Of a stretch of 64,000 nt of DNA, positions 1,880-37,503 are shown one piece after another. The DNA is taken from contig JAFUOJ010000015.1 in NCBI GenBank assembly GCA_017481945.1, positions 62,001 to 126,000 of the forward strand, written 5' to 3'. How positions within the stretch are numbered: the stretch's first letter is position 1; each line of letters opens with the position of its first letter. Under the pieces are notes generated by a model. The model made no database searches, was not told the DNA's origin, and saw only the letters and a list, made by a program, of their open reading frames with translations. Position numbers and translations under genes: made by a program. Source of the DNA: Parabacteroides sp. (GTDB lineage Bacteria > Bacteroidota > Bacteroidia > Bacteroidales > Tannerellaceae).

Positions 1880-1900
1880 AAGATACATCAATCCATATAG

Positions 1901-1932: not shown

Positions 1933-1937
1933 TTTCT

Positions 1938-2429
1938 TTAAGTAAACAACCGCTTATACTCCTGTTCAAAATTGGGAGTAAAAACACCTTTTCCCAAATT
2001 CTCCAATATCTCACTTTGTTTCCAAAAACGCCCCTCTTCCAATTCTGAAGGATCAGGTGTAATAGTTCCGGAATAGGTTGTACGGAATGTATTTACTAGC
2101 TCTTTCTCAACGGCTGATTCAAAAACATAACGTGTCATAAATTGAGGTTCAAAATCGGTTACCCCTAACTCCTCACGTACCTCTCTTCGGAGTGCCTCTT
2201 CGACCGTCTCTCCATAATCCATGTGACCACCGACTGCCGTATCCCACTTTCCCGGCTGAATATCTTTCGTCATCGAACGTTTTTGCAGGTAGAGCTCGCC
2301 AGCCTCATTAAAGAGATGAAGGTGAACAACAGGGTGCAATAATTTGGAACCACTATGACACTCTTTGCGAGTCGCCTTTCCGATCGTCTCTCCCACTTCA
2401 TTCACAAGCGGAAACCATTCTTCTTTCAT
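1938..2429 (-). CDS. Nudix hydrolase (YfcD/isopentenyl-diphosphate isomerase-like)
   Basis: Hydrolyses a nucleoside diphosphate linked to another group, or isomerises a related substrate; the substrate cannot be told from sequence. The 163-residue protein carries a complete Nudix box near residues 67-90: the glycine of GGHMDYGE, the REVREELG core and correct spacing (G-x5-E-x7-RE-x2-EE-x-G). The N-terminal segment (EWFPLVNEVGETIG) and the PVVHLHLFN strand are typical of YfcD and IDI-type Nudix proteins. The ATG at 2429 lies 4 bases after the stop of topB (2434), so it is likely co-transcribed with topB. Sure of the family, not of the substrate. Confidence 0.9.
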   Translation of the reverse strand: MKEEWFPLVNEVGETIGKATRKECHSGSKLLHPVVHLHLFNEAGELYLQKRSMTKDIQPGKWDTAVGGHMDYGETVEEALRREVREELGVTDFEPQFMTRYVFESAVEKELVNTFRTTYSGTITPDPSELEEGRFWKQSEILENLGKGVFTPNFEQEYKRLFT

Positions 2430-2433
2430 CTTC

Positions 2434-4482: not shown

Positions 4483-4646
4483 CTCAGTCTACACTCTTTT
4501 ATCAAAGCTGCAAAAGTACACTTTCTTCAAGACTTTCTAAAAAGAAAAAGGAGTTATTACATCCTCCTCTACTTCTTGAACAAAGTTTAGAGTCATTTTT
4601 ATACCCCAAAAACATTCACTTTAAGGCTCTATGCGTTTAACTTTTC

Positions 4647-4812
4647 AATACCCCGTAAGGTATCGAGTCAATACCTTATAAGGTATCGGTCCAGTACCCC
4701 GTAAGGTATTACGCTAATACCCTATAAGGTATCGACCTAATACCTTATAGGGTATTCGTGTAATAACTTATCGGTTATTGAGTCAATAACTGGTAAGTTA
4801 TTGGAGTAATAA
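4647..4812. repeat. Array of seven 17-18 bp palindromes with exact 23-bp period
   Basis: Units begin at 4647, 4670, 4693, 4716, 4739, 4762 and 4785, with a truncated eighth at 4808, always 23 bases apart. Units 1-5 are variants of AATACCTTATAAGGTAT and units 6-7 are AATAAC...GTTATT, so both arms changed together and the dyad was kept. The 5-6 bases between palindromes are not conserved. It occupies the gap between the glmM terminator and topB. No coding potential is apparent. The function is unknown; tandem operators for a dimeric protein or a palindrome-based repeat element are possible. Confidence 0.9.
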
Positions 4813-4834
4813 ATGAAGGGGGAAGCTTAAGACA

Positions 4835-4865
4835 TAAAAAAACCGCCCTTCTTGGAAGGACGGTT
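4835..4865 (-). terminator. Intrinsic terminator of glmM
   Basis: Stem AACCGCCCTTC (4841-4851) with GAAGGACGGTT (4855-4865), one mismatch, loop of three. The A run at 4835-4840 gives a U tract on the minus-strand transcript. It lies 26 bases after the glmM stop. Confidence 0.85.
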
Positions 4866-4891
4866 CGCTTTATCTAAAGAGATTCATTTTA

Positions 4892-6280
4892 TCATTTACA
4901 CATTTCACGAATAATTTGAATCAACTCCTCTCCAATCTCTTCAGCTTCCTGCATTGTATGAGCTTCTGAATAGATACGAATAATAGGTTCCGTATTACTC
5001 TTACGTAAATGTACCCATTTTTCTGGAAAATCAATCTTTACCCCATCAATATCAGTGATATCATAATGAGCAAACTTTTCTTTTACTTTCAATAAAATAG
5101 CATCCACATCAATATCAGGAGTTAACTCAATCTTTTTCTTTGAGATAAAATATGGAGGATAAGAAGCTCGTAGTTCGCTAGTCTTCATCTGCTTCTTTGC
5201 TAAATGAGTCAGAAACAAAGCTATACCAACTAAAGCATCTCGACCATAATGACTTGCAGGATAAATCACTCCTCCATTACCTTCTCCACCAATAATTGCA
5301 TTTGTTTCTTTCATCTTCGTAACGACATTCACTTCTCCTACAGCTGCAGCATTATACTCACAACCATGGGCACGCGTGATATCTCGTAATGCACGACTAG
5401 AACTTAAATTACTTACAGTATTACCAGGTGTATGACTCAAAACATAGTCACTAACAGCAACTAAAGTATATTCCTCGCCAAACATTTCACCATCTTCACA
5501 AACAATGGCTAAACGATCGACATCGGGATCAACAACAAATCCTACATCAGCTTTAGCACCTCTCATTAAATCAGAGATCTCCGTCAAATTCTCAGGAATT
5601 GGTTCCGGATTATGAGCGAAATTACCATGAGGAGTACAATGTAACTTTAATATCTCTTTTACTCCCAAAGAAGAGAGTAATTCTGGGATAACAATACCTC
5701 CAACAGAATTAACACAATCAATCGCAACTCGGAAGTTTGCAGCTTTTATGGCTTCTACGTCTACTAAATCTAAATCAAGAACACTCTCAATATGTTTTTG
5801 ATTTAGATTTTCATTTACAATAATCTTTCCTAAATGATCTACATCAGCAAAAATAAAATCTTCTTCTGCCGCAATTCTAAGGACCTCTACTCCATCTGCT
5901 GCATTTAAAAACTCACCACGTTCATTCAATAATTTCAAAGCATTCCATTGCTTTGGATTATGGCTGGCTGTTAATATAATACCCCCACAAGCATTTTCCC
6001 ACACGACAGCCAATTCTGTAGTCGGGGTTGTGGCCAAATCTATATCTACCACATCAAATCCCATCCCGGTAAGAGTTCCTAACACAACTTGTTTTACCAT
6101 TGAACCTGAGAGACGAGCATCACGACCCACTACAATTTTATTTGTTGTCACTTTCGTGTTTTTTCTAATGAATGTAGCATATGCTGCTACAAACTTAACA
6201 ATAGCCAAAGGATTTAACCCTTCTTCTGGGTTTCCCCCTATTGTACCACGGATACCAGAAATAGATTTAATTAGTGTCAT
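4892..6280 (-). CDS. glmM: Phosphoglucosamine mutase
   Basis: Converts glucosamine 6-phosphate to glucosamine 1-phosphate for UDP-GlcNAc, peptidoglycan and LPS synthesis. The 462-residue protein has the alpha-D-phosphohexomutase layout: RGTIGG near residue 11, the phosphoserine loop TASHNP (Ser about 106), the metal-binding DPDVDR near 250, the sugar-binding GEGNGG region near 335 and the phosphate-binding RKSNTEPIIRIY near the C terminus. The Bacteroidetes form is often labelled phosphomannomutase, so substrate choice between glucosamine and mannose phosphates is inferred. The start ATG at 6280 follows the DUF4827 stop by only 8 bases, so the two are probably co-transcribed. Confidence 0.9.
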   Translation of the reverse strand: MTLIKSISGIRGTIGGNPEEGLNPLAIVKFVAAYATFIRKNTKVTTNKIVVGRDARLSGSMVKQVVLGTLTGMGFDVVDIDLATTPTTELAVVWENACGGIILTASHNPKQWNALKLLNERGEFLNAADGVEVLRIAAEEDFIFADVDHLGKIIVNENLNQKHIESVLDLDLVDVEAIKAANFRVAIDCVNSVGGIVIPELLSSLGVKEILKLHCTPHGNFAHNPEPIPENLTEISDLMRGAKADVGFVVDPDVDRLAIVCEDGEMFGEEYTLVAVSDYVLSHTPGNTVSNLSSSRALRDITRAHGCEYNAAAVGEVNVVTKMKETNAIIGGEGNGGVIYPASHYGRDALVGIALFLTHLAKKQMKTSELRASYPPYFISKKKIELTPDIDVDAILLKVKEKFAHYDITDIDGVKIDFPEKWVHLRKSNTEPIIRIYSEAHTMQEAEEIGEELIQIIREMCK

Positions 6281-24569: not shown

Positions 24570-25277
24570 TTAAATACCATTAAACATATCATCGATCTGT
24601 TCTTCATTATCAGAAGTATTCCCAATATTTTCTTCTACACTTTTCCTTTCTTCTAAAAATGACTCTTCTATTAATGAAGTCTTAGTCTGTTCCATATTCA
24701 CAGAAATCCATATTAACCCTCCACCTACAAGAAGAGTAACAAGTATAAGAATAAAAGACCGATGAGATATTTTCATCATATAACGTTGACTCATAAAGAA
24801 GAAAGTGGATAATCCCATAAGAAATAAGGTAATAACATAAGGTAAAACAATATCAAGTAAAGCAAATACACACATCAGTGGATAAAAAATAAGACAAGCA
24901 TAAATAATTGGTTCAAAAACAAAATGACCTAATATAGGTAATAAAATATGCGCGAACAAATTTTCTATAATATTATCGTTCCGTTTTGTATATTTATTAC
25001 CATAACTATCTTTATAAACATCATAAGGCTGACCTCCCCAATGACCAAACTTACCCCAATTAACTATTGCAAGTAACAAACCAATAATAAATAAAGGGGT
25101 AAACCATACTGATTCAAAAATATTCCATTCTATATCGAATCCAAAATCAGCTACAGTAAACATTTCATAACAAAAAAATATAGAGCATGCAAAAACAACT
25201 CCTCCACAAATATAACTCGCCTTAACAAAACTTTGCTCTGAAAGTTCTGGTATCTTATTTAATAATGACATATTCAT
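24570..25277 (-). CDS. Multi-span membrane protein, last gene of tubulin-like cluster
   Basis: Function unknown. The 235-residue product has about five or six hydrophobic segments (near residues 22-42, 58-74, 108-125, 127-146, 150-165 and 175-193). A conserved-looking soluble loop between the second and third spans contains GKFGHWGGQPYDVYKDSYGNKY. The C-terminal tail is acidic and polar (LEERKSVEENIGNTSDNEEQ, then IDDMFNGI). It follows the short tubulin-like gene by 47 bases, with no terminator between them, and a strong terminator follows it. It is therefore the likely end of the operon and a candidate membrane partner of the pseudo-tubulin. Confidence 0.75.
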   Translation of the reverse strand: MNMSLLNKIPELSEQSFVKASYICGGVVFACSIFFCYEMFTVADFGFDIEWNIFESVWFTPLFIIGLLLAIVNWGKFGHWGGQPYDVYKDSYGNKYTKRNDNIIENLFAHILLPILGHFVFEPIIYACLIFYPLMCVFALLDIVLPYVITLFLMGLSTFFFMSQRYMMKISHRSFILILVTLLVGGGLIWISVNMEQTKTSLIEESFLEERKSVEENIGNTSDNEEQIDDMFNGI

Positions 25278-25324
25278 ATACTACAATTTAAACATTAATA
25301 ATTTTCATCTTTTACATAATTAAA

Positions 25325-26443
25325 TCAAAATAAATCATCAAGTTCTTCTAAAGTTTCTGTATGAAGAAATATTTTTTCCTTAACACCATTTGATTCATTA
25401 ATCATATATTGATATTTACTCCGACCAATATTCAAATAAGGAGTTATATCAAGCGAAGGATATAAATAGATACTCGTTTTTCCCTCTTTAAAACAACAAG
25501 CAACTAATCCTCTACTTTTAGAAACACAATATGAATCACAAAAAATTCTCCCTATTAATGAAGTAGTTTCTTTGAATTTAAAATCATGCTCTTGATGACG
25601 AATAAGGAGTTCTTCTATATTATCTGCAACTTTATCATCTTCAATTATATTTCCTAAATCAGTTCTATTTGAAACAATATATCCATACCTAAAGGCTTGC
25701 TCATAATAAATTCGACCAACCTTACCAGTCATAGGATCTAGCTCACCATAAATATCAATAGGATTATATTTATGATAGTACATAGCATTCAACTCCATCA
25801 AAGTAGCATAGCCACTCCCTTGATAAAATGAAACGAAATCGTCATCTGAATCAGTTTCTCTTGTAAAAAGATAAAGATCTATAATCAAATTGTCCGAATG
25901 TATTAGCTTATGTAATTGTGCTATAAGATCCACGATCATAGCAGTTCCTAAAGAATCTGATAAATCCACACAAATACGAACAAAAATATTTTCTCCCAGA
26001 ATATATTTAGGATCATGCTTCAAACTAAAAATACAATCTCGCAGAATCGTAGTAAAACCACCAATAGGATTATGAGTGATACCATCAACCATAGCGGTAC
26101 GCCATATTCGTCGGCTACGATTCTGAAAAAAGAACTTCGGGAGAGGAATTTTCCAAGGACGAGCTATATCATGACTATCTTGTTTTGTAATAAAATCTTT
26201 TATAATAGGATAATCTGCAATTAATAATTTCCCTCCATATTCTATTCCACCTCCAAGTCTAACCTTCAATGAAAGAGAAAATGGATAAGTATAAACTTTT
26301 TGATTCGATACATTCCAAGTATCACTTTCTGCTTTTATATGTACATATCTCACAGCTCCATCCGATAGAGCATTTTCCTTTCGACAAAGCCTTTTAATGA
26401 GCATTCCTCCCATGCCATCAAGACCTATAATAATCTGATTCAT
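25325..26443 (-). CDS. Degenerate tubulin/FtsZ-like protein (paralogue of 33190-36282)
   Basis: A 372-residue protein that aligns by eye with the N-terminal half of the large tubulin-like protein in the same cluster. GLDGMGGM matches GLGGTGGQ; NRSRRIWRTAM matches GQRRRFGRMLM; YATLMELNAMYYHKYNPIDIY matches FAALSELNALSLGKYYPTDVS (shared first 20 residues shown in parts); MTGKVGRI matches TTGKVARL. At the nucleotide-binding T4 loop the partner has AGGTGSGSIVDV, but this protein has SDSLGTAMIVDL, so the glycine-rich GTP signature is gone. The large C-terminal region of the partner is missing. An upstream TTG would add four residues; the ATG at 26443 gives MNQIIIGLDG. It probably binds GTP poorly or not at all and may cap or regulate the partner (inference). 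Confidence 0.75.
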   Translation of the reverse strand: MNQIIIGLDGMGGMLIKRLCRKENALSDGAVRYVHIKAESDTWNVSNQKVYTYPFSLSLKVRLGGGIEYGGKLLIADYPIIKDFITKQDSHDIARPWKIPLPKFFFQNRSRRIWRTAMVDGITHNPIGGFTTILRDCIFSLKHDPKYILGENIFVRICVDLSDSLGTAMIVDLIAQLHKLIHSDNLIIDLYLFTRETDSDDDFVSFYQGSGYATLMELNAMYYHKYNPIDIYGELDPMTGKVGRIYYEQAFRYGYIVSNRTDLGNIIEDDKVADNIEELLIRHQEHDFKFKETTSLIGRIFCDSYCVSKSRGLVACCFKEGKTSIYLYPSLDITPYLNIGRSKYQYMINESNGVKEKIFLHTETLEELDDLF

Positions 26444-26583
26444 TTTTATATTCAAATTTAACTATATTACCTTCCAAATTTCAGGTACACAACTTTTAAT
26501 CGTATTAATAACCGTCACAAAAGTAGTAACAACCATTTATCCATTGATAGAGATACCATGACCTCCATCAATGAAACAAAGAG

Positions 26584-27144
26584 TTAGAACCGATAAGACA
26601 CCCCTATATTTGCATACGCAACTCCATAGCCTAATTCTAAAACTGCCGCAAAATTATCACTCAGATAATACCTTGCCCCTAAATGACCAGCTAATATTAA
26701 TCCATTACTATCTACCTTAATAGAATAATCATAATCATACAGATCTGAGTTATCATCTACCCAAGAACTCGAATTAACAATTTCATATCCAAACATCAAT
26801 CCTACATAAGTATCTAAACGGTCGATAAATTGAACATGTAAATTACCACGTGCACCAATAATTATATTATGGTATTTAGCTCCAGCTGTAACTCCCATAA
26901 GACTTTTTTCTACTTTATCATGGCTATAGCCCAAATATCCTCCGATTCCGACGGAACCATTTCCATTATTAAATAAGCCATCAACTATACAATTCTCATA
27001 AGTAAGAGAAGCCGCAAGCCCATCTCCAACACCTACATTTGCACCAATTAAATTATCCCCTTTCATAAAAATATCCTGGGCATAAGAAGAAAAAACAGAA
27101 CTTATAAGTCCAACTATCAAAACTATAACCTTTTGTATTTTCAT
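26584..27144 (-). CDS. Small outer-membrane beta-barrel protein of the cluster
   Basis: A 186-residue exported protein. It has a signal peptide (VIVLIVGLISSVFSSYAQ), then barrel-type strands such as DNLIGANVGVGDGLAASLTYENC, cited here only by its first part DNLIGANVGVGDG, then VGIGGYLGYSHD and LGARYYLSDNFAAVLELGYG, ending ANIGVSYRF with a terminal Phe. The size suggests an eight-stranded barrel of the OmpW/PorT kind. It lies 64 bases after the 279-residue protein gene and 140 bases before the degenerate tubulin gene, same strand. It could be the outer-membrane end of the system. Confidence 0.75.
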   Translation of the reverse strand: MKIQKVIVLIVGLISSVFSSYAQDIFMKGDNLIGANVGVGDGLAASLTYENCIVDGLFNNGNGSVGIGGYLGYSHDKVEKSLMGVTAGAKYHNIIIGARGNLHVQFIDRLDTYVGLMFGYEIVNSSSWVDDNSDLYDYDYSIKVDSNGLILAGHLGARYYLSDNFAAVLELGYGVAYANIGVSYRF

Positions 27145-27208
27145 ATCTTTTTAGATGTTATTATATCTATTTATAAAATTATTTTTCCACTCTAAAACAG
27201 ATTATGCT

Positions 27209-28048
27209 TCACGAATTCTGTTCCATTTTTTGAAGTTCTTCCTCCAATCTTTTCAATTCCTCTTCGTCAATTTCAACCTGTTCTTCTTCCGTAGCTTCCC
27301 GTATCTCTTGCTGAGCCATAGCTAGTAATTTACCTCCATCTTCTTTTGTAAGATCCTCCAAACTCTTTTCCGTTGAAATTATCTCTGTCTGAATATATTC
27401 ATCAGAAGCGACTTCTCTAAAAAACACACAATTAGAAATCTTTTTTATATCATTTTCTGTAAGCCCAATACTACTTAAATCCAATGTTTTAATATCCACA
27501 TGATCATTTTTTAAATCTTTCCAATTTCCCCATTGATGTTTACGCATATTGACAATTTCCTTTATTTCTTTTGTCGCCATACCTATAATTTTAGGTCCAG
27601 CTTTTAGATATTTAGCATAAGAAATTGCAGCAAATCCTAAATTTGGCAAAGCTAATGTAGCATTAACAGTTTGTAACCCAACTAAAGTTCCATCTAAAAC
27701 AATGACTGTTCCGGTTAATACACTATTTAATAGCTGCCAATTAATATTAGCCGTACTTAATAATTGACTATTTACATCTTCCATCCATACCATTTCATAG
27801 GCTTTTCCAGCAATTAATACTGTATCATTTTTATACTCATATTGATTAATATTCTCCTGATAAGATTGAATTTTATTCCAAAGTGTATCACATTGCATTA
27901 AATATGAATCAACCTCTTTATTTCCAGATTTAGTACCATCCCATTCCCACTTAAAGGGCTTTTTTTCTTTTTTAGCAGAGATTTCAAAAGGTGTAAATAA
28001 AATAAAACCTATCAATAAAAGACTTTTTATCCATAATTTTGTATTCAT
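27209..28048 (-). CDS. Secreted protein of unknown function with coiled-coil tail
   Basis: A 279-residue protein with an N-terminal signal (LWIKSLLLIGFILFTPFEISAKK). The next region is rich in Lys/Trp (KKPFKWEWDGTKSGNKEVD). A hydrophobic stretch near residues 93-145 (LLNSVLTGTVIVLDGTLVGL and a following Ala/Leu-rich part) could be one or two membrane segments. The C terminus (EEEQVEIDEEELKRLEEELQ) is a highly charged heptad-like coil. I recognise no family. The ATG at 28048 is 2 bases after the previous stop, so it is translationally coupled to the 28051-29583 gene. Confidence 0.7.
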   Translation of the reverse strand: MNTKLWIKSLLLIGFILFTPFEISAKKEKKPFKWEWDGTKSGNKEVDSYLMQCDTLWNKIQSYQENINQYEYKNDTVLIAGKAYEMVWMEDVNSQLLSTANINWQLLNSVLTGTVIVLDGTLVGLQTVNATLALPNLGFAAISYAKYLKAGPKIIGMATKEIKEIVNMRKHQWGNWKDLKNDHVDIKTLDLSSIGLTENDIKKISNCVFFREVASDEYIQTEIISTEKSLEDLTKEDGGKLLAMAQQEIREATEEEQVEIDEEELKRLEEELQKMEQNS

Positions 28049-28050
28049 AC

Positions 28051-29583
28051 CTATTTCGTTACTTTAAGTTTAACATCTAATTTTCTTGTTGTTGAAGTAA
28101 TCGGAAACAGTTCGTCACTAAGTTCCAATTGTCCGCAGAAATAAAGAGCTGCATATTTTTTATCAGGTTCAAGTTTTATTAAATAAGAATTATTACTTCC
28201 AACTCGTCCTACCAAAGTAAAATGCTTTCTTTTTTTCTCTTCACTTAAATATTTTATTCGTTCTTTATATTTTACTATATTTTTCTTAATAAAAGAATCA
28301 TATTGATCTTTCGTCACTGCAAAAATTTCAGTTCCCGGAATACGATCTTTATAGCTATCATCCTTAGTTACAACACCTTGTATTCGTTGTTTTTCAAGAA
28401 CTGTTGTTCGAATAGAATCAGTTCCACTTTTTGGATGTTTATACAATTGTTTTTTAGCAGCCTGTAAATCTTCTTCAAGTTGCACGTCTGCTGGATAAGA
28501 ATCACTCAATTTTTGATTTGCCAATACAATCATTCGACAACAATCATAAGCACTTTCATGTTCAAATCCATATGTTTGAATAATCTCACCTAATTTATTT
28601 TCATGCTTCTGAATGATTCGCATATACCCTTCTGAATTAGCTGCTTTCTTTTTCAGCTCCAACAATTCCTGTTTACGTTCAAGAGGGCAATACACATGAT
28701 CACGTGCATTTTGATAAGTATTGGCTGCTGCTAAAAAGTTATGTTTTTCTTCTAATTGTCGAGCTTTTTGTAGTAATTCATCAAAAGACAAATCACGTTG
28801 TTCCAATATGACTTCTTTCTCTCCTACTATATTTTTATAAAATACCCGGAATTTAAAATTCGCTTTAGGAGCAATTGTCGCATTATCTTTTAATTGAATT
28901 TCTAATTCATTTGAATCCCCATCTTCTGTAGTATGTTGTACTTTTAACACTGGTCTTTTAAATGAAGTCTGATTGATTTGCTCTCCTTCTAACGTGAAAA
29001 GGAAATGATAATCTTCATCTTCTTTTTCAATCGATAGAAAAGTTGGTAAAGAGACCTCTACTACACCTCGTTTCAATACCTGAATATCATTATAAAAGAT
29101 GTTCAAATTGGTCAATCTACTACTAATCGTAATTCGAGCTCTATCAGAAGCATATAAACCTCTGTCCACACTTTCATCTGCATAAGCAAATTCTGGTGGT
29201 ACCGTAAAGCTACATTTATATTGTTTTCCCGGAGACAATCGACAAGTCAAATCAGTTTGCCCATAATCACTACCAATTTTTAAGATTCTTCTAAATACCT
29301 CTGTTCCATCTAATTCATCTTCACTGTACTGAATGACTAACGTGTACTTAAAAGTTCCATCTGCCTCTGTCGTCGGAGTAACTGTACATTCATCTCCCAT
29401 ATTACTCTTTATACTCAATCGTTCAATGGGTGAATAAATGGATACAATCGATTGATTAGAAGGACTTGTTCCTTCTACTAATTCTAAGTTCGTAATTTTA
29501 ACTATTTTCTCCTGAGCAAAAAGGGAGAAAGTAGATAACATTCCTATTAGCAATAAGATTAATATATATATTTGTTTTCTCAT
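28051..29583 (-). CDS. Secreted repeat-containing protein of unknown function, tubulin-like cluster
   Basis: About 510 residues. The signal peptide is RKQIYILILLLIGMLSTFSLFAQ read from MRKQ. The N-terminal ~240 residues look like two beta-sandwich modules: VTPTTEADGTFKYTLVIQY, then a LSPGKQYKCSFTVPPEFAYA-type strand and a repeat of the pattern near 180-240. A helical middle region (LLQKARQLEEKHNFLAAANT, then ERKQELLELKKKAA) resembles a TPR-like hairpin. The C-terminal domain ends in RKLDVKLKVTK. A TTG at 29592 precedes the ATG at 29583; I prefer the ATG because it begins the signal peptide cleanly. Stop-to-start distances on both sides are very short, so it is firmly in the operon. No function can be assigned. 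Confidence 0.7.
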   Translation of the reverse strand: MRKQIYILILLLIGMLSTFSLFAQEKIVKITNLELVEGTSPSNQSIVSIYSPIERLSIKSNMGDECTVTPTTEADGTFKYTLVIQYSEDELDGTEVFRRILKIGSDYGQTDLTCRLSPGKQYKCSFTVPPEFAYADESVDRGLYASDRARITISSRLTNLNIFYNDIQVLKRGVVEVSLPTFLSIEKEDEDYHFLFTLEGEQINQTSFKRPVLKVQHTTEDGDSNELEIQLKDNATIAPKANFKFRVFYKNIVGEKEVILEQRDLSFDELLQKARQLEEKHNFLAAANTYQNARDHVYCPLERKQELLELKKKAANSEGYMRIIQKHENKLGEIIQTYGFEHESAYDCCRMIVLANQKLSDSYPADVQLEEDLQAAKKQLYKHPKSGTDSIRTTVLEKQRIQGVVTKDDSYKDRIPGTEIFAVTKDQYDSFIKKNIVKYKERIKYLSEEKKRKHFTLVGRVGSNNSYLIKLEPDKKYAALYFCGQLELSDELFPITSTTRKLDVKLKVTK

Positions 29584-29595
29584 CACAATCAATAA

Positions 29596-30585
29596 TTAAA
29601 TATCTATATCAAAATCTCCCAAAGTGAATGCGTCCTCTTTTTGAACAGCAATTTTTGTCTGAGTATTGTCTGTATATTTAGGTTGCCAAGTTCGCACATG
29701 AATCATGGGTTTATTTTCATTTCTGAAATCCCACAACAAGAACAAATAGCCATCATCACCGTATGTACTGGACGTATATAACTGATGTAAATTCACTCCA
29801 TAGAAATCTTTCTTTGTAGGATGTTGAGTTACCTTTATCTCATCAAATTTCACATTAATGAATTTATTGGTTGCAAATGTTTTTTTCAAAGTAGAGATAT
29901 ACTCTTCCTTAGTACGTTTGTAATATTCAACATGAGGTTTACTTTTAACACCATCAGATGTTGGAGAAGTTTGTATCACTTTCCCAACAATAATCAAAGC
30001 GTCATCACTAAATATTTGTTCCAAAAAATTAATATCTTTCTCATTATATGCAGTTCTAAAATGTTCCACATAATCCAATATTAGCATACGTCTACGTACA
30101 TCCTTTACTTCATTCTTATTTTTCATCACTTTAGAATAAAGATTGGTACTAATTGTAAAATAAAAGCTGGAAATTTCTCCAGATGGTTCAAAATTTATCA
30201 CAGCTTCCTGATAGGTATCATCCGTAGTAGTAGCACCTTGCGGTTCAATAACTAATGGGATCTGACGAATTTGAAAACCATTACTAGTAATTAAACAATC
30301 CTGTATTACTTCACTATCTTCACATTTGAAACGTACATTAGCCCACAACGCAGCTAAAGATTCTTTAGCTTTCATTGAAATCTGCACATTACTAAGATCT
30401 AATCCACTCTGTTTAGCCTCAAACGCTTTATTAATTTGCGTCAATAAAGCACTTGCATTACTTTCCAAAACAGCTTTATTACTTACACTATTTTTCACTT
30501 TCAGCTGAACACTATTTGATGCATGAATAGGTGATAAACATACACAAATGAACAGCACAATAAATTGTAAAACTGACTTTCTCAT
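29596..30585 (-). CDS. Secreted protein with NTF2-like domain, tubulin-like cluster
   Basis: 329 residues from the ATG at 30585, which begins a signal peptide (RKSVLQFIVLFICVCLSPIHA). A start at 30627 would overlap the upstream gene by 28 bases and add a Lys/Asn-rich leader, so I rejected it. The C-terminal half is NTF2/SnoaL-like: ILDYVEHFRTAYNEKDINFL followed by EQIFSDDALIIVG, then EEYISTLKKTFATNKFINVK and a final WDFRNENKPMIHVRTWQP strand. NTF2-like folds often bind small ligands or serve as scaffolds. The N-terminal half (about residues 25-165) is unassigned. It is coupled to its neighbours by short gaps (3 bases downstream to the next gene region). Confidence 0.72.
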   Translation of the reverse strand: MRKSVLQFIVLFICVCLSPIHASNSVQLKVKNSVSNKAVLESNASALLTQINKAFEAKQSGLDLSNVQISMKAKESLAALWANVRFKCEDSEVIQDCLITSNGFQIRQIPLVIEPQGATTTDDTYQEAVINFEPSGEISSFYFTISTNLYSKVMKNKNEVKDVRRRMLILDYVEHFRTAYNEKDINFLEQIFSDDALIIVGKVIQTSPTSDGVKSKPHVEYYKRTKEEYISTLKKTFATNKFINVKFDEIKVTQHPTKKDFYGVNLHQLYTSSTYGDDGYLFLLWDFRNENKPMIHVRTWQPKYTDNTQTKIAVQKEDAFTLGDFDIDI

Positions 30586-30599
30586 ATTTTTATTCTTTT

Positions 30600-31418
30600 T
30601 TATTTTCCTTGTGTTATGACAAACCAATAAGCAGCATTTCCACTATAATTACTTAATTTATCCAGTTGATTCGTTCTAAGATTCATCCGTTCTTGATCCC
30701 CTTCTCCCAATACGCCAACCACTTTTCCTTCGCGATTATAAAACAATAAACAACAAGCCTGAACATCTAAATCAATAGAAGTCATTTTTCCATAAACGAT
30801 ACCAGTTGCAGCCTTTAACTCCTGAAAAATAACTTTAATCTCATCCATTGTTTGTGCTTCAATAATTCTTTGCAATGCTTTCTTAGGAACCTCTGGTTTA
30901 GGTTTAGATATTGATTGAGAAGTTGTTGTTTTCGATTCTGCAAAATCCTTCTTTGTAGTAGTAGTTGTTGTTGCTGTTGTATTTGTCGCAACAACAGATT
31001 CTTTAAGGGAAACTTCCACTATAGTACCCTGCCCCTCCTCCTGTTCATCATCATCCAAATGAATAAGATTACCATAAATAGGAATAATATCCTTTTTCAA
31101 GGTATAGGCTAACACCCGAACATTAGAACCTCGATTCATCGTTAATTTCTCAACACAAGATTTAATATCTTGAGTAGCGATTTGTTTTGCTCCGGTATAT
31201 TTCTTTTCCTCCTTAGCCCATTGTTCTATCGCCAGTATCAATGCTTCTTTAGCCTCATTTAAAGCCTCATCCAAAGTAGGCATAGTAGCTTCTGCACAAA
31301 TATAAGCCCGAGATAATTTTATCCGGTTAATCTCTTTTTTAGTTTTCTCTACAACATTCTGAGCAGACATAAAAGTACAGAAAAACAGACTTACTAAAAT
31401 AAAATAAACTCTTTTCAT
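30600..31418 (-). CDS. Secreted LPP20-like protein, tubulin-like cluster
   Basis: A 272-residue protein with a signal peptide ending MSAQ near residue 19. The region at about 35-115 (AYICAEATMPTLDEALNEA, then KEALILAIEQWAKEEKKY) has the alanine/acid spacing of LPP20-type domains found in envelope lipoproteins. A Thr/Ser/Lys-rich linker follows (about 145-175, with VVATNTTATTTTTTKK), then a mixed alpha/beta C-terminal domain (IYGKMTSIDLDVQACCLLFY, VVGVLGEGDQERMNLRTN) ending NAAYWFVITQGK. The start ATG overlaps the upstream stop by four bases (ATGA), showing translational coupling. LPP20 assignment is by eye and tentative. Confidence 0.68.
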   Translation of the reverse strand: MKRVYFILVSLFFCTFMSAQNVVEKTKKEINRIKLSRAYICAEATMPTLDEALNEAKEALILAIEQWAKEEKKYTGAKQIATQDIKSCVEKLTMNRGSNVRVLAYTLKKDIIPIYGNLIHLDDDEQEEGQGTIVEVSLKESVVATNTTATTTTTTKKDFAESKTTTSQSISKPKPEVPKKALQRIIEAQTMDEIKVIFQELKAATGIVYGKMTSIDLDVQACCLLFYNREGKVVGVLGEGDQERMNLRTNQLDKLSNYSGNAAYWFVITQGK

Positions 31419-32413
31419 TTTTTCTTGACATTAACGTTGTACAATTTATTCTTTCCTTTATACGTTTCAAATAGATTTTCTAAATTATGGATAGGAATAT
31501 AAACATGAATACTTCCCTCAATAACACCCTTACGTTCTTTCAATAAATTCTGTGAAAATGTGACTGTCAAAACATGATTATATTGTAAAGTCTTATTGAC
31601 CACAAATTGAGTAGCCTGAATAATTCCATGATGAATCTCTTCAACCCCAACAAACAATTCACAACCACTATTTTTACAAAACAGAAGCCACTGTTTTAAA
31701 GGAAGCGTGAATTCCTCTTTCTTAAAACCATATTTACAGACAGAAAGACGAAGTTGAAAATCACCGGGGGTATCAGGCGAAAGGAAAAGATTATACACAC
31801 TCTCTTCCGGATAATCCGGATTACATATAAGTGTGGCTTTGTCTATTTCCTTTTTATAATAAAGATTAGAAGTAATCTCTGGTATGAAATAAAAATTTCC
31901 GTCTTGAACTCCAAATGTATGCAGACTATCCACCCAAAATGGTATAGCTTTCTCTTTCAAACAGAAAGGATGTAAACTTTTACCTATTTCTTGCAAAAAA
32001 TCATCCTCTAATTTCTTTTTATTTTTTCCCATAATCAATTCAAAAGAACAGGGAGCCGACAATTCAAAAAAAGATTTCTCGGCATTAGATAATCGAATCC
32101 AATGTCGCTTATCTTTTGTTTCCATTTGTAAGCTTGTACTATCATTGATAAAAGTCAATGCACTTAAATTTCCTTGAACGATTTGAACATCATCTATTTC
32201 CATTTTCTGTTTTTGTTCTGCAATTGAGTAGGTTTGCAATTCATCTGTATAACGACAAAAGAAATGAAAAAGAACACGCATATTGGGATTATCAGCCAAA
32301 ATAGAATCGTTTTGTTTATAAAACGAAGTCTTGGACAATATGGGATTTATGGCGATGGTTTCTACTACCACCGCCATAAAAATATAAATCCATATAAAAG
32401 GTCTGTATTTCAA
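31415..32413 (-). CDS. Unknown exported protein, tubulin-like cluster (TTG start proposed)
   Basis: 332 residues, no family recognised. From the TTG at 32413 the protein opens KYRPFIWIYIFMAVVVETIA, a good signal or membrane anchor. The first ATG at 32377 would cut this segment in half. An in-frame stop lies just upstream of the TTG, so no longer version exists. TTG starts are uncommon here, so the start is uncertain. The body is mixed alpha/beta with many aromatic residues and about six cysteines, including KYGFKKEEFTLPLKQWLLF and CKNSGCELFVGVEEIHHG. It overlaps the next gene by four bases and follows the zinc-ribbon gene by 11. Confidence 0.65.
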   Translation of the reverse strand: MKYRPFIWIYIFMAVVVETIAINPILSKTSFYKQNDSILADNPNMRVLFHFFCRYTDELQTYSIAEQKQKMEIDDVQIVQGNLSALTFINDSTSLQMETKDKRHWIRLSNAEKSFFELSAPCSFELIMGKNKKKLEDDFLQEIGKSLHPFCLKEKAIPFWVDSLHTFGVQDGNFYFIPEITSNLYYKKEIDKATLICNPDYPEESVYNLFLSPDTPGDFQLRLSVCKYGFKKEEFTLPLKQWLLFCKNSGCELFVGVEEIHHGIIQATQFVVNKTLQYNHVLTVTFSQNLLKERKGVIEGSIHVYIPIHNLENLFETYKGKNKLYNVNVKKK

Positions 32414-32424
32414 AAGAATTCAGT

Positions 32425-33177
32425 TTATTGACCAATCATAATCACTTCTACATTCCCATCTTTCTTATACCACTTTCCTTGCACAAGTTTTCCGTGAATA
32501 TATTCACCAACTACTGAATCACCTTCTTCAGCATACCGTTCTTGATCATCTTTCGGACTAATCCGTTGACGAGCTTTAAAATACATACGTCCATTTGTAT
32601 CGTGTGGTAGTCCTTTCTCATCCACAGCCCCAGTCCAAACAGCATAGCCTAAATCAGTCCCGCTATCCGGTTCAAAGTCTCCTCCTACTTTTACTTTCAC
32701 CTCATATTCACAAAAAGCCTTCAATTCTTTATTTTCGTTTACCTGTACACCTATTTTTGCAGTCCCTGGTGCTACAGCAGTAACTACACCATTTACTACT
32801 GTAACAACAGCTGAATTATTAGAGGCCCAGCGTACTGTTGCATTAGATTTTTCCGGAGTAAAAACAACTTCCAAAGTATCTGTAGCTCCTACTACTAATT
32901 CTGATTTTTGTTTATTAAGAGAAATCGTTTTAGGGGCTGTAGTATCTCCGCCTCCAGAAGACCAAATAAAATAGCCTCCAGTACCTAAAATAGCAGCAGC
33001 GGCAACACCTCCAACAATAGGTTTCCAATTAGGACCTCCTCCCTTTGCTTTTTTCTCTTTCAATTCTCTACCACATTCTTCACAAACGAAATTTGCAGCT
33101 TCAACTGTCTGTATTTCCTTTTTTCTTGCCTTCGAACAATTTCCGATATTAAGGCAAATTCCTGTTTTTTTCGGCAT
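32425..33177 (-). CDS. Zinc-ribbon / transmembrane / Ig-like (BIG2) protein of tubulin-like cluster
   Basis: 250 residues with a clear domain order. Residues 1-40 hold four cysteines (C8, C14, C32, C35, the last pair as CEEC) that look like a cytoplasmic zinc ribbon. A basic Gly/Lys linker is followed by one membrane span near 55-73 (VGGVAAAAILGTGGYFIW). An extracytoplasmic BIG2-type immunoglobulin fold covers about 82-165 (KTISLNKQKSELVVGATDTL, VTPGTAKIGV-like end). The C-terminal ~70 residues (GLPHDTNGRMYF, then YIHGKLVQGKWYKKDG) resemble MORN/YwqK-type repeats. It directly follows the tubulin-like gene (12 bases). This topology could connect a cytoplasmic filament to the periplasm. Confidence 0.78.
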   Translation of the reverse strand: MPKKTGICLNIGNCSKARKKEIQTVEAANFVCEECGRELKEKKAKGGGPNWKPIVGGVAAAAILGTGGYFIWSSGGGDTTAPKTISLNKQKSELVVGATDTLEVVFTPEKSNATVRWASNNSAVVTVVNGVVTAVAPGTAKIGVQVNENKELKAFCEYEVKVKVGGDFEPDSGTDLGYAVWTGAVDEKGLPHDTNGRMYFKARQRISPKDDQERYAEEGDSVVGEYIHGKLVQGKWYKKDGNVEVIMIGQ

Positions 33178-33189
33178 ATTCTTTTATTG

Positions 33190-36100
33190 TTATCTATTTT
33201 CTAATTTTGTTTCAAAAAGATTTTCTGCAGCTTTACGATACTCTACAAATAAAGGATCTAAATCATTCTCATGACACAAAGGCAATATTGTTTCACATAC
33301 CTTGTTTTCAATCGCTTTACGTAAAGTTTCTCGCTGACTATTTTGTTTATATTCTGTAGCTAATGTATTATCAACAAACTCTGCAACAGATTTTGCTAAA
33401 ATTGCGTCCTGAACCAAGAGCCTTAGCGTTTCCTCCATGTTTTTACCCACACGCAACCACTTACGGCTAAAACCACTACCTACTCCTAAAGCCATAAATA
33501 TTCCACCTGTCTCTGGATCTGTTTTTTCCTCTAATACATTCAAACTATGCAAAAGAATGGAATAAGGCAACAATTTAGACCGCTTATCAGTATTACTTGC
33601 TTCAAATAATTCAGGTAAGTCATTTACGAAACTTTCTGTATGTAACAATACCTTGTTTAGTTCTCCCAATGAATTATTAATTAATGCTTTATATTTACTT
33701 TCCAAAAATTTAACATTCTGAATATAGCGTAACGGATAAGAAAAAGAAGCAGAAATTATAACCATTTGACTCTCTCTTGGATTAATACAAACATCTTCCT
33801 GAGGAGAAAAACCTGGACACTGTTGTGCAAATGTTTGGATAAACCTATCTCTAAAATTAGTAGGGTCATTGTATTCCGGCAAACAAAGTTGTACCATTCG
33901 CCTCATACCTAATGCAGCTTGTCCGGCAACAACTTTTCCCATTTCAGCAGGATCAAACTGAATAAAACATTTAGCTTCTTGAACAATCTTATGAACATAT
34001 TGCTCTAAAAGGTCACTTGTAGCACACTCTTGTTTGATCTTTTCTAAAACATTTACATTCAACATTTTTAATGTAACATCTTTTTGAGCCAAATCATTCA
34101 TAGAATTAGCCGCATTACGCTGACAAACCTGCATAATACTTCGAGTCATCGTATCAATGTCACTTAAACTATTATTGAGTAATGCAAAATTTTTCTCATC
34201 CTCACCTAAGAATCTCGCTAACATATTACGGACCTCTTGAGCATTCGTTTTTTGCATACCACTATCAATAATTAATCCTGCTGCTATTTCACGAATAGCC
34301 TGTGGATTATATTTTTTATCCAGTACCTCAGCCTCTTGGTTAGGAGAATCCATAGTTATTCGACATTTTGATTCAGCTGCATCTATCACCTTCTCCAAAA
34401 CAGCGTTTAAGGAGGCTTTAAAATCCGTAACACCACTAAGCATTGCTGAAAGCTGACGACTGATTGCTTCTAACAAAGTTTTTGCATATTGATAACTTTC
34501 AATTTCTGTTTGAATTGTATAATACTCACATTTAAGTGTCTTATATTGGTCAAAAATTTTCTTAGAAGCTCCTGTTATGACATCTTTCAGCCAACTGATA
34601 TTATTCCACTCATTTAATATACTTTCAATCGTGACTAATGTCTCCTGTTCCATATATTTATAGAGATCTGCCACTTTATTACCAAAAAAATTAAGGCGTT
34701 CTTCACTAACCAAAATCAGTGTCTGAATATATTTTTCAACCTCTAAAAGCGATTTATCACCAGACAGCCACTCATTAAATAATAAAGATTCAATATGTCT
34801 TCTTAAAGTAGCTGCATATCCGTTATTTTCTGCACGTTGAGTTTCGTAAAAATGTTTGACACCAACTCCTCTAAAATTAGTATTAAATTCAACTTCACAA
34901 CTTCTTACAAAATTATCAATCCAATTTTTTTTCTCTCCATCCTCTCTTGCTTCTCCAGCAAAGAATTGAGTAATTGTTTCCCAATAACTATAAAACTCCT
35001 GCCAATTATCAGTAACTCCTCTAATATTTCTAATGGGAGCTTGTAGTGTCAAATAACGATTTGAGAGATGTAATTTATCAAGTTCTTCTTCCCTTCTATC
35101 CGTAAACATCTGCCGGTAACCCAAACCGACCTCATCAATACTACAACTTTCAAAACCTTTTCCATCCACCCAAAGATTATATGCTAATTGTTTTGCAGCC
35201 TGTTCTGCAAACTTATAAGAGACATATTCTTTAATTTCCGTTTCAGGATATTCGATACGTTTAATACCAAAAGTCATAAACTCTCGAGAGTGTACATTAG
35301 TTCCAGCTTCATCTTTTTCTGGTGCACATCCTTCATTTTCAGCATTCATCAAACGGTTCATCTCCGTACCTGTACCAAATACTCCAGGAACTACTGCTTT
35401 TTGATAAAGAAAATCTGCAACCGCTTCCGGTAATTTTTTAGATTTAGGTAAAACCTTTCTATCCTCATTAAAATTACTAAACAAATAGGCCTTGGTAAAA
35501 GCGTCACAATTATTTAATAAACGAGCAACTTTACCAGTTGTATAATCTGTTTCTCCTGATACATCCGTCGGATAATATTTACCTAAAGAAAGGGCATTAA
35601 GCTCACTTAAGGCTGCAAAGCCATTCGCATGATAAAAACCCGCATTATGTTTTTCTGGAACCAATATCTCAGGAATATATAAATAAAGAAATAGGCGAAA
35701 CTGATTTTCCATAGGAGCTGTAATTTTTCGTATTTGAGAAACAACATCAACAATAGAACCAGATCCTGTCCCTCCTGCCAATCCAGCACACACATGAAAA
35801 TCAAGCGTGCCATTTCCAGAATTAGTCAGTTTTAAAGCTTTATCTCTCAAACGGGAAACAAAACTTGCATCCATATCATTAGTTGAGATATTATTGGCCA
35901 TTAACATACGTCCAAAACGGCGACGTTGGCCACCAATTCCAGCTGAGATAATAGACATCACTTGATCATTTTGAAGTAATGTTCGATCTTTTTCTGAAAG
36001 AAAAGACTGAATTCCAGGATAAGCATGAAGAGTTTGTAGAACACCAGCCTTCATTCCATGAATACTTACTTTTTGAGCAGGCCCTAAATAGAGAGGTTCA

Positions 36101-36282
36101 CCCATATAGGTCCAATTCGTACGATCATTCAAGTCATCTTCTGAAGAATCCACATACAAATAGTCAATATTTGCTCTTCCTGTGACATCCTTTGTTCCCA
36201 ATTCCGCATAAATACGTTTACGTAATGCACAAAGGATTTGTCCCCCTGTACCTCCAAGCCCAATAATAAGATGATTTGCCAT
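33190..36282 (-). CDS. Large tubulin/FtsZ-like GTPase (Tubulin_2-type), 1030 aa
   Basis: Core gene of the cluster. The N terminus has a Rossmann-like start (HLIIGLGGTGGQILCALRK), the segment GIGGQRRRFGRMLM near residues 115-128, and the tubulin signature AGGTGSGSIVDV at about 169-180. These are followed by SELNALSLGKYYPTD and TTGKVARLLNNCDAFTKAYL near 230-270, the region that carries the nucleotide-contacting Asn in tubulins. The C-terminal ~650 residues are mostly helical and unassigned. FtsZ is about 400 residues, so this is far larger and belongs with the tubulin-like families that form conserved clusters in diverse bacteria. It likely binds GTP and polymerises in the cytoplasm. The ATG at 36282 follows the membrane gene by 43 bases. 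Confidence 0.85.
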   Translation of the reverse strand: MANHLIIGLGGTGGQILCALRKRIYAELGTKDVTGRANIDYLYVDSSEDDLNDRTNWTYMGEPLYLGPAQKVSIHGMKAGVLQTLHAYPGIQSFLSEKDRTLLQNDQVMSIISAGIGGQRRRFGRMLMANNISTNDMDASFVSRLRDKALKLTNSGNGTLDFHVCAGLAGGTGSGSIVDVVSQIRKITAPMENQFRLFLYLYIPEILVPEKHNAGFYHANGFAALSELNALSLGKYYPTDVSGETDYTTGKVARLLNNCDAFTKAYLFSNFNEDRKVLPKSKKLPEAVADFLYQKAVVPGVFGTGTEMNRLMNAENEGCAPEKDEAGTNVHSREFMTFGIKRIEYPETEIKEYVSYKFAEQAAKQLAYNLWVDGKGFESCSIDEVGLGYRQMFTDRREEELDKLHLSNRYLTLQAPIRNIRGVTDNWQEFYSYWETITQFFAGEAREDGEKKNWIDNFVRSCEVEFNTNFRGVGVKHFYETQRAENNGYAATLRRHIESLLFNEWLSGDKSLLEVEKYIQTLILVSEERLNFFGNKVADLYKYMEQETLVTIESILNEWNNISWLKDVITGASKKIFDQYKTLKCEYYTIQTEIESYQYAKTLLEAISRQLSAMLSGVTDFKASLNAVLEKVIDAAESKCRITMDSPNQEAEVLDKKYNPQAIREIAAGLIIDSGMQKTNAQEVRNMLARFLGEDEKNFALLNNSLSDIDTMTRSIMQVCQRNAANSMNDLAQKDVTLKMLNVNVLEKIKQECATSDLLEQYVHKIVQEAKCFIQFDPAEMGKVVAGQAALGMRRMVQLCLPEYNDPTNFRDRFIQTFAQQCPGFSPQEDVCINPRESQMVIISASFSYPLRYIQNVKFLESKYKALINNSLGELNKVLLHTESFVNDLPELFEASNTDKRSKLLPYSILLHSLNVLEEKTDPETGGIFMALGVGSGFSRKWLRVGKNMEETLRLLVQDAILAKSVAEFVDNTLATEYKQNSQRETLRKAIENKVCETILPLCHENDLDPLFVEYRKAAENLFETKLENR

Positions 36283-36325
36283 AATTATTTATTTTAAAAT
36301 TTGTTTGTATGATGATGATTTAGTG

Positions 36326-36901
36326 TTACCGATACATTCTAACTCTACGATTTGAAACACGAGATCTTCTTGTCGTAACACCTTTTCTTTGTCTCTGACC
36401 TTGTTCAAACAAAATCGCTATAAAACATGCGACCACGATATAGCCTAAAGACCACAAAAATTTACTCCAAATTACATGGTTCATCTCTTTACGAACCACT
36501 TCGGGTATAACCATCGCAAGATTCGATATATCATTTCCGCTAAAATCTGCTATTTGAAGGTAATTTCCTAAAAGAGGATATTCATCTATCAAGTAATCAA
36601 ATACGGCTTGGCTTTCTTTTGCATTAACAATACCAGAAGTATTTTCAGTAAGTTGTCTTAAAGATAACGCCATAGCCTCTGTCGTACTTTTTACTTGAAA
36701 AGCGCCAATCAAGACAGATAGATTACAAATAAGTAGAAAAGCTAGTATTAAGCCCGTTATGTAAAAAGGGAACGACTGGACAATTCCTTTACTTAAAGAT
36801 TTCAGGACAAAATATAAAATAGACATAATCACAGCCGTCGTGATAACGCCATAGAAGATACAGGAAAATGCTGTTGTTAATAAAGAGAAGAATGTTACCA
36901 T
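36326..36901 (-). CDS. Three-span membrane protein, first gene of tubulin-like cluster
   Basis: 191 residues. Hydrophobic segments are near 5-32, 45-68 and 143-165. Between spans two and three is a ~70-residue soluble stretch with VKSTTEAMALSLRQLTENTS and YPLLGNYLQIADFSGNDIS. The C-terminal tail after the last span is strongly basic (RQRKGVTTRRSRVSNRRVRM). Its lengths recall MotA/TolQ-like proteins only superficially; I find no motif to support that. It leads into the tubulin-like gene with a 43-base gap. It begins about 67 bases after the terminator of the upstream RNA, so it may have its own promoter or be fed by read-through. Confidence 0.72.
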   Translation of the reverse strand: MVTFFSLLTTAFSCIFYGVITTAVIMSILYFVLKSLSKGIVQSFPFYITGLILAFLLICNLSVLIGAFQVKSTTEAMALSLRQLTENTSGIVNAKESQAVFDYLIDEYPLLGNYLQIADFSGNDISNLAMVIPEVVRKEMNHVIWSKFLWSLGYIVVACFIAILFEQGQRQRKGVTTRRSRVSNRRVRMYR

Positions 36902-36967
36902 TACTATTTACTTTTTATAATATCCAGCGTTCCCTAACTGAATAAAAAATAAACTTCACGTAACGGC

Positions 36968-37378
36968 ATAAAAAAAGCGCGGGAACTGTTCAGCTGCTGT
37001 CCCGCACGTATAGGCCTTCGCATTGCCTTTAGAAGTAGGACAAGCAACACAGAGCCCACGCCGATATGATACAACATACCCTTATGACCATAACCATCAA
37101 ATATCTACAAAGGTTGATATTCGATTACCCATATAAGACCATAAGGGATGCGAATAATCACATCCCATGGACATCTATCATTGCTTTACCTTTGACTTCT
37201 AATTGTGTGAAGTTGCGAAGTTCATACGTGCCAAAGACTAAGCGCGTGATAAACGCCTTATAATATGTCGCGATTCTCCATGTCCCACCCAACCATCTTT
37301 AGTCCTAAACTATTGACATCGGCGTAGTCTCAAAACCATACGTCATAAAAACATATAGGTCACAATATTTCGAAGAAT
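36968..37378 (-). ncRNA. Candidate ~410-nt structured RNA upstream of the tubulin-like cluster
   Basis: The 600-base gap between the OmpA gene and the cluster has no coding gene but has the parts of an RNA gene on the minus strand. A consensus promoter lies at 37385-37417, long-range pairing ATCGGCGT (37318-37325) with ACGCCGAT (37058-37065) closes a domain, a GGGATG...CATCCC hairpin lies at 37145-37166, and CCCTTATG (37079-37086) can pair with CATAAGGG (37140-37147), competing for the same GGG. A terminator follows at 36970-37005. It is more GC-rich than the flanks. It lacks tmRNA ends and the conserved RNase P and SRP motifs, so it is not one of those. It could be a free regulatory RNA (6S-like has not been excluded) or an attenuating leader of the cluster. 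Confidence 0.65.
36970..37005 (-). terminator. Terminator of the candidate ncRNA
   Basis: GCGGGA (36979-36984) pairs with TCCCGC (37000-37005) around an inner CAGC/GCTG element, followed on the minus strand by a seven-base U run (36970-36976). It ends 69 bases before the first gene of the tubulin-like cluster. Confidence 0.75.
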
Positions 37379-37384
37379 CAATCG

Positions 37385-37417
37385 CAAATATAGGAAAATA
37401 TCTAAATAAAAAACAAA
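37385..37417 (-). promoter_or_regulatory. Consensus Bacteroides promoter of the candidate ncRNA
   Basis: The minus strand has TTTG (37417-37414), 21 bases, then TATATTTG (37392-37385). Both elements match the known Bacteroides -33/-7 consensus exactly and the spacing is allowed. The expected start is near 37378. It is the best promoter match in the window. Confidence 0.8.
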
Positions 37418-37439
37418 TTAAACATCTTTAAACCACAAA

Positions 37440-37477
37440 AAAAGCGAGTTCCCTCTCTATTTTGGGTTCTCGCTTTT
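37440..37477 (-). terminator. Terminator of the OmpA-family gene
   Basis: AAAAGCGAG and CTCGCTTTT pair perfectly, with CCC/GGG inside after a TT mismatch. A further A run at 37437 gives the U tract. It follows the OmpA stop by 26 bases. Confidence 0.8.
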
Positions 37478-37503
37478 CTAATTAAAAGATCTATTTACTC
37501 TTT

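Follow-up and report, generated by a model that had tools for sequence, protein, structure and literature searches.

What does a large tubulin-like GTPase do when its gene lies among genes for membrane and exported proteins? The question is raised by a stretch of Parabacteroides sp. DNA (NCBI GenBank assembly GCA_017481945.1, contig JAFUOJ010000015.1, positions 62,001 to 126,000), whose full 64,000 nucleotides we call the window, and in which eleven open reading frames (ORFs) occupy the minus strand at 24570-36901. In order of transcription we name them m191, tub, zbig, s332, lpp, ntf, s513, s279, bar, dtub and m235. An original prediction, made from the letters of the window, had described these eleven same-strand genes as encoding a filament linked through the inner membrane and periplasm to the outer membrane. 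The genes are where it had placed them, and comparison with other genomes demonstrates that the envelope genes also occur without the tubulin-like Tubulin_2 protein, with a kinase or a TIR head in its place. We hold, with modest confidence, that these genes encode a relay across the envelope whose cytosolic head can be exchanged. That its architecture is modular appears highly probable, and its role is probably that of a relay rather than that of bending membrane.

The gene tub (33190..36282) encodes a protein of 1030 amino acids (aa), our proposed cytosolic switch, which matches Pfam PF13809 (Tubulin_2, also FtsZl1) at E 1.3e-56 and 192.8 bits against a cut-off of 27, as had been expected of it. 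The match spans residues 5-363, and the protein has the loops IGLGGTGG and GGTGSGS; the latter is its form of the GTP-binding loop GG(G/T)TG(S/T)G, whose glycines are invariant or nearly so across a 50-row alignment. Among PDB sequences the tubulin profile weakly matched FtsZ and tubulin chains in the T4 region (E 0.12-0.25), and a canonical FtsZ-type match lies elsewhere in the same genome. Distribution of Tubulin_2 is patchy, with 13 of 123 genomes of the bacterial family and 9 of 394 genomes drawn across the phylum carrying it. A contig scan with a four-row alignment yielded 58 loci, of which, going by their titles, 49 belong to Bacteroidales (one placed only to Bacteroidia) and nine lie outside Bacteroidota, in Methylacidiphilum, Chromatiaceae and kin, Magnetospirillum, Deltaproteobacteria and Neomarinimicrobiota. 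Carriage by phages or plasmids was considered and set aside, as no phage record matched the tubulin and the one plasmid match was distant (28% identity).

A full-length tubulin is present in 45 of the 49 Bacteroidales loci, and 40, 37 or 38 of these 45 were eligible by flank length for the counts that follow; many of the genomes are fragmented, and the profiles used to score presence were built in part from the same loci. In all 40 loci with at least 5.5 kb downstream, tub, the Zn-ribbon gene, s332, lpp and ntf keep the same order and strand, and profiles recognize the Zn ribbon, the MORN-like end, s332, lpp and ntf in each of the 40. Hence the linkage of these genes is far beyond chance. Upstream of the tubulin gene, m191 is found in 33 of the 37 loci whose upstream flank is long enough, and it occurs in seven of the 123 family genomes, all seven carrying tubulin; outside Bacteroidota, one query gave E 0.008 for L080 (L numbers denote loci or stretches and G numbers genomes), and a wider profile gave no match up to E 1. 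The gene s513 is present in 23 and s279 in 13 of 38 loci, only two members of bar were found (the window and L024), and four of m235 (the window, L038, L074 and L089), which in L074 adjoins a second tubulin. The unit thus has a core (tubulin, stalk, s332, lpp and ntf), which m191, s513 and s279 often accompany, and a variable tail. Linkage of the neighbors in other Bacteroidales, on which the original prediction depended, is therefore present, and the membrane and exported partners described around the tubulin are supported as well, with hydrophobic N-termini or spans in hydropathy scans. The idea of an eleven-gene unit gives way to the five-gene core, with bar in one other genome and m235 in three other loci. 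The same 40 loci contain a kinase match in two, a TIR match (E <=1e-3) in one and none at 1e-5, and FHA or PP2C matches in none. Two tubulin-type loci have, a few kb upstream of the tubulin gene, a gene for a kinase (L081, 5748-6953; L076, 6049-7287), and these may possibly be hybrid systems.

Directly after tub lies zbig (32425..33177), whose product we call the stalk. An N-terminal Zn ribbon of four cysteines is followed by one transmembrane (TM) span, an optional BIG2 domain and a MORN-like C-terminus. The Zn-ribbon/TM/BIG2 description given originally holds, with a Pfam Big_2 match at E 5e-9 and all four cysteines invariant in a 33-row alignment; at E <=0.05 Pfam recognizes BIG2 in 16 and MORN in 14 of 33 stalk members (Pfam member counts here are out of 34, 33 or 24, depending on the family). 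A Zn-ribbon gene also adjoins this subclass of Tubulin_2 in all nine loci outside Bacteroidota, where a profile built from Bacteroidales alone gave best E-values per locus of 4e-11 to 4e-6. The exported part of these distant proteins varies, and consists of PBP-like and OmpA domains (L080, L087), an Ig-like domain (L084) or an FGE-sulfatase domain (L086, L091). Hence OmpA and binding-protein domains, both reported as FtsZl1 partners, can be part of the Zn-ribbon protein itself.

The exchange of the tubulin for other heads is evident already within the family. The genomes with ntf are also those with s332, 16 of 123 (the s332 match of G063, at a contig start, is weak, E 5.7e-6), and ten of these 16 also have Tubulin_2. 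In three of the six tubulin-less genomes the gene that immediately precedes s332 encodes a Ser/Thr kinase (L103, L105, L108), and the other three have a response-regulator-like gene recognized by eye (L106) or a contig end (L104, L107). Extra ntf/s332 copies in two tubulin carriers are of the kinase type as well (L109, L111). When the family, the order and two further families are taken together, 53 stretches have a readable gene upstream of s332 or ntf, the context of ntf matches having been fetched for 14 of 40 places in one search (the strongest first and some weaker ones) and for all places in two others. This upstream gene is of the Zn-ribbon/tubulin type in 13 stretches (two being the contigs of L078 and L079, with L116 and L127 assigned through their tubulin), a kinase in 12, a TIR protein in two, a secreted protein of about 700 aa in nine (Pfam was run on that of L117 alone, giving Sel1) and something else in 17, which include ntf domains within larger proteins and loci with lpp or a cut gene upstream. 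No tubulin was found in any of the 15 kinase- and TIR-type stretches.

Pfam confirmed all six of the 12 kinase heads that were scanned (for example L118, E 5e-28), and those of L140, L141, L144, L145, L147 and L152 are assigned by a kinase profile alone, which, like the TIR, FHA and PP2C profiles, was derived from a few of these proteins themselves. The two TIR heads match Pfam TIR_2 above the cut-off (L121, E 3.5e-14) or just below it (L122, E 4.6e-6). By hydropathy, a single TM span follows the head in 12 of 12 kinase and two of two TIR proteins, and eight of these 14 genes overlap the next gene by four bases. When trained only on the Zn-ribbon type, a stalk profile matches 24 of 1053 ORFs in stretches L103-L179, and all 24 lie directly upstream of s332 or ntf; they comprise 13 tubulin-type or cut stalks, seven kinases, two TIR proteins and two others (L150, L177). 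The MORN-like stalk is therefore kept by both TIR heads and by seven of 12 kinase heads. Genes for FHA and PP2C proteins adjoin the kinase head in L103 and L105, and of the 13 kinase-type loci, counting L148, five have PP2C matches and four FHA matches. Receptor Ser/Thr kinases consist of a kinase, one TM span and extracytoplasmic repeats, and have PP2C and FHA partners; the likeness to L103 and L105 is one of layout only, the envelope gene set being different. Elsewhere, a TIR-profile gene (455-550 aa) is convergent to s513 in three sets with a secreted upstream gene (L158, L159, L160), and the TIR-type set of L121 has close by a protein of 1311 residues (1540-5475) that matches AAA_16, kinase and TPR. 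Given that three kinds of head are found with the same envelope set and a related stalk, the role of the head is most likely one that all three can share, namely relaying or reading the state of the envelope.

The history of the heads can be followed on an unrooted tree of 99 ntf rows, from which we left out L128 and other duplicate contigs, ntf pieces under about 180-280 residues, L057, L058, L164, L165 and L171, and loci whose upstream gene is cut or falls under "other" (five of these were kept). Approximately unbiased (AU) tests were run on 77 of the 99 rows, picked after the first tree by removing long branches and near copies, with L152 and L122 removed and the kinase test run without L148. 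A single clade was rejected both for the 11 kinase-type rows (p 0.0008) and for the 44 tubulin-type rows (p 6e-46), which argues that heads changed more than once. On the full tree the six head labels need at least 13 changes against a mean of 41.5 after shuffling, and heads have thus also been inherited over long stretches.

Some sets have no head at all. In other classes of the phylum we read 18 stretches (from 32 places with ntf, the strongest first and some weaker ones), in which lpp and ntf are usual and s332 occurs in seven, and no tubulin, kinase or TIR match is found among the genes listed. Bacteroidales also have proteins of about 600 aa that contain an ntf domain and have no head adjoining. 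One of them (L123, 7387-9162), outside a cluster, matches both the lpp and the ntf profile, with an LPP20-like N-terminus and an ntf-like C-terminus, and this fusion supports contact between lpp and ntf. A second (L112, 7282-9189; about 600 residues) matches Pfam LPP20 above the cut-off as well as the ntf profile. A further gene, in L125 (7581-9446), matches the ntf profile only.

The protein locations, contacts, signal direction and tubulin assembly that we propose for the relay would be as follows. The s332, LPP20-like, NTF2-like and TPR/PEGA-like proteins would reside in the periplasm or at the outer membrane and would meet the MORN-like end of the one-pass stalk. The Zn ribbon of the stalk, in the cytosol, would recruit the Tubulin_2 GTPase, so that a change in the stalk, either clustering or a shift, could cause the tubulin-like protein to assemble in a GTP-dependent manner, or to switch its state, on the cytosolic side of the inner membrane. 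The short pseudo-tubulin may tune or cap its larger relative. We prefer a signal that runs from outside to inside, with even confidence in that direction; the alternative would run from inside to outside.

Several observations weigh against this proposal. Among the 53 upstream genes, 17 fit no head type and nine encode secreted proteins without a cytosolic part; five of 12 kinase heads have no MORN-like end, four of these having TPR matches instead (L105, L108, L109, L111), and the MORN repeats are short. The kinase-type locus L140 has its Zn-ribbon match in a separate FHA protein. Three of the 13 family genomes with Tubulin_2 (G114, G135, G137) have no Zn-ribbon or envelope gene in the stretches examined, and the nine loci outside Bacteroidota are not independent, four being from Chromatiaceae and two from Deltaproteobacteria. 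The trees are quick ones in which long branches are present; rejection of a single tubulin clade would also fit several losses of an ancestral tubulin, and on the pruned tree kinase versus tubulin amounts to only two changes. Our confidence rests on the head exchange itself. Head-less sets demonstrate that a cytosolic switch is not indispensable to the envelope part, the suggested periplasmic placement comes from hydrophobic N-termini and a hydropathy scan, and the relay as a whole is a reading of sequence comparisons. The same-family Tubulin_2 genes of L035, L036 and L037 stand apart from any Zn-ribbon stalk or envelope set in the stretches examined, that of L037 being the nearer to the tubulin profile (E 4e-132).

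Other explanations of the set have been offered or can be drawn from known systems. When Makarova and Koonin (2010; PMC2875224) founded the FtsZl1 family, they proposed a membrane remodeling machine, in which filaments would shape the inner membrane or drive the formation of vesicles and envelope proteins would anchor them to the wall and the outer membrane. The family membership of tub and the inference given in the available text of that paper speak for such a machine, as does the canonical FtsZ elsewhere in the genome, which frees tub for another job; moreover, the OmpA-type domains on Zn-ribbon proteins outside Bacteroidota (L080, L087) make a wall anchor plausible. However, the tubulin's position beside these envelope genes can be occupied by a kinase or a TIR domain, and neither is a force-making filament, no vWA match was obtained among the ten window proteins scanned (all but m191), and the adjoining OmpA gene is unlinked. 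Since kinase and TIR domains can replace the tubulin, a membrane-bending role is disfavored; the remodeling filament of the original prediction is accordingly not one that we favor, and we consider it unlikely. A reviewer of the 2010 paper had already proposed transport or signaling for FtsZl1. As far as the available text of PMC2875224 describes them, the FtsZl1 operons share with our set the GTPase family (a sequence from Bacteroides caccae is among those aligned) and many membrane or exported partners, and both the paper and its reviewer name OmpA and binding-protein domains as partners. They differ in that vWA, kinase, P-loop GTPase and OmpA partners are frequent there and none was found by Pfam in ten of the eleven window proteins, although such partners are frequent and not universal in FtsZl1 and do not decide membership. 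The main text of that paper does not contain the word zinc, whereas a Zn ribbon adjoins Tubulin_2 here; its supplementary family lists may hold some of these genes. Its authors were unable to place the T6-H7 elements of FtsZl1, and the family has served elsewhere to root a tree (PMC9871819, in its available text).

A different possibility is a conflict system of the immune type, in which the envelope set would sense an invader and the head, whether TIR, kinase or tubulin-like assembly, would kill or raise an alarm. It is encouraged by the description by Kaur et al. (2020; PMC7159879, available text) of tubulin and kinase/PP2C as alternative themes in GTPase-centered conflict systems, by the patchy presence of Tubulin_2 in 13 of 123 family genomes, and by a few defense-type matches among 99 flanking proteins (AbiEii, PD-T4-6 and mad6, each at least two among the matches listed). 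Yet those flanking matches are few among the ones listed and come without a control set for comparison, so that a defense island was not adopted as an explanation; none of ten window proteins matches PADLOC at E up to 1, and head-less versions exist. We regard the conflict explanation as doubtful. The GAP1-N2 systems of PMC7159879 share with our set the use of tubulin, HSP70 or kinase plus PP2C as alternative themes, Zn ribbons, TM segments, and PEGA, NTF2 and beta-sandwich domains outside the membrane. In the available account, by contrast, those themes are attached to a GTPase accompanied by GAP1 and FNIII-repeat proteins, mainly in Actinobacteria and Firmicutes, whereas here the exchange takes place on the stalk gene, with one envelope set, in Bacteroidales, and the TIR head adds a third state. 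No P-loop GTPase family is among the Pfam and NCBIfam matches of ten window proteins, a comparison in which no GAP1 model was checked. Alternatively, the set might be a regulated envelope or secretion machine, for which tubulin, kinase or TIR would provide cytosolic on/off control of an envelope structure. The head-less sets of other classes are in keeping with an envelope part that has a function of its own, as are the ntf-domain proteins of about 600 aa (that of L123 with an lpp part) in Bacteroidales without adjoining heads. Moreover, according to the available text of PMC9880817, phototaxis is impaired in a Tubulin_2 mutant of Synechocystis, and co-fractionation gave putative links to pilus proteins. 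This alternative is nonetheless doubtful, as no known secretion or pilus family is among the Pfam matches of ten window proteins and the envelope families have no assigned function. The Synechocystis group sll0445-sll0447 resembles our set in that a Tubulin_2 protein sits in a gene group, there with a motility link, but its FtsA-like and DivIC-like partners have no match among the ten window proteins scanned.

The relay with an exchangeable head, which we prefer, leaves a place for the second tubulins. In the window dtub (25325..26455) encodes a short pseudo-tubulin of 376 aa with 29% identity to tub (E 9e-20) and a Pfam match below the cut-off (E 0.005). Its T4 loop reads DSLGTAM in place of GGTGSGS, and the degenerate paralogue noticed originally is thus real. 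Six loci have a second tubulin (the window, L049, L052, L066, L071 and L074); four of them, including the near copies L049 and L052, have lost the T4 loop or have it damaged, and L071 and L074 keep it or nearly so. The damage has arisen in at least three different ways (L066, 7805-9964; L049, 7664-9988; L052, 7664-9988; window, 25325-26455). From these sequences it is possible that second tubulins with a damaged T4 loop are pseudo-GTPase partners.

The remaining genes of the window set are less readily named. The first, m191 (36326..36901), encodes a small membrane protein of 191 aa with a few hydrophobic spans by hydropathy and a basic tail. Hydrophobic N-termini are predicted for s332 (31415..32413), whose fold is not recognized, for the LPP20-like lpp (30600..31418), for the NTF2-like ntf (29596..30627, with a likely start at the ATG at 30585), for s513 (28051..29592) and for the optional s279 (27209..28048). 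The variable tail contains bar (26584..27144), a putative small outer-membrane barrel, and m235 (24570..25277), a multi-span membrane protein. The two fold assignments that had been made here stand in part. For ntf the NTF2-like call is consistent but weak (Pfam Cds6_C NTF2-like, E 9e-5, below the cut-off). LPP20 by Pfam was not accepted for the lpp family of the window, where one of 34 members matches at E 0.036, but a distant fused relative does exceed the cut-off (E 6e-7). The lpp and s332 profiles gave weak matches only among PDB sequences. The s513 family profile has one TPR-like stretch and matches designed TPR chains at E 8e-13, and a PEGA protein lies in the s513 neighborhood of two head-less relatives (L170, E 8e-30; L163, E 2e-31). 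The compactness described for the cluster holds for its small intergenic gaps of 2-128 bases, calculated from ORF coordinates, and less so for its overlaps: that of four bases between s332 and lpp is firm, and that of 28 bases between lpp and ntf depends on a TTG start. Promoter-like sites number 63 against a shuffled mean of 62.5, and terminator-like sites one against 4.5 expected.

The original prediction had drawn attention to an OmpA-type gene just beyond the set, and the link that this suggested is not retained. The gene is a core gene of the genus (35 of 38 genomes), four other genus genomes with Tubulin_2 (G002, G009, G020, G091) have it on a different contig, and it was not found in any of 49 relative loci (flanks being short in some). 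The gene content after it varies among 25 genus stretches read. A link cannot therefore be concluded from its nearness in the window, and we rejected the OmpA gene as a partner. Downstream of this gene, window positions 36902-37503 look like a frequent insertion point when the 25 genus stretches are compared.

In the open-access literature, as far as listings and the beginnings of abstracts reveal, we found no earlier description of the Bacteroidales stalk with its heads. The family was described in 2010, and in the same literature a reported mutant phenotype was found for only one Tubulin_2 protein, that of Synechocystis. The exchange for a kinase or TIR domain, of which we likewise found no account there, is a comparison that bears on the function of the Bacteroidales set. 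The prediction that follows from it is that a kinase or a TIR domain can also perform the task of the tubulin, and the Zn ribbon is the likely docking site of the tubulin in several phyla. If this is true, then a relative of tubulin would be a signal switch at the membrane. More speculatively, Bacteroidales might possess an envelope receptor family of their own, built on a one-pass protein, whose cytosolic output is a tubulin-like polymer, a Ser/Thr kinase or a TIR domain. Tubulin polymerization would then serve as a signaling output rather than as a skeleton, in a role comparable to that of a kinase or TIR domain.

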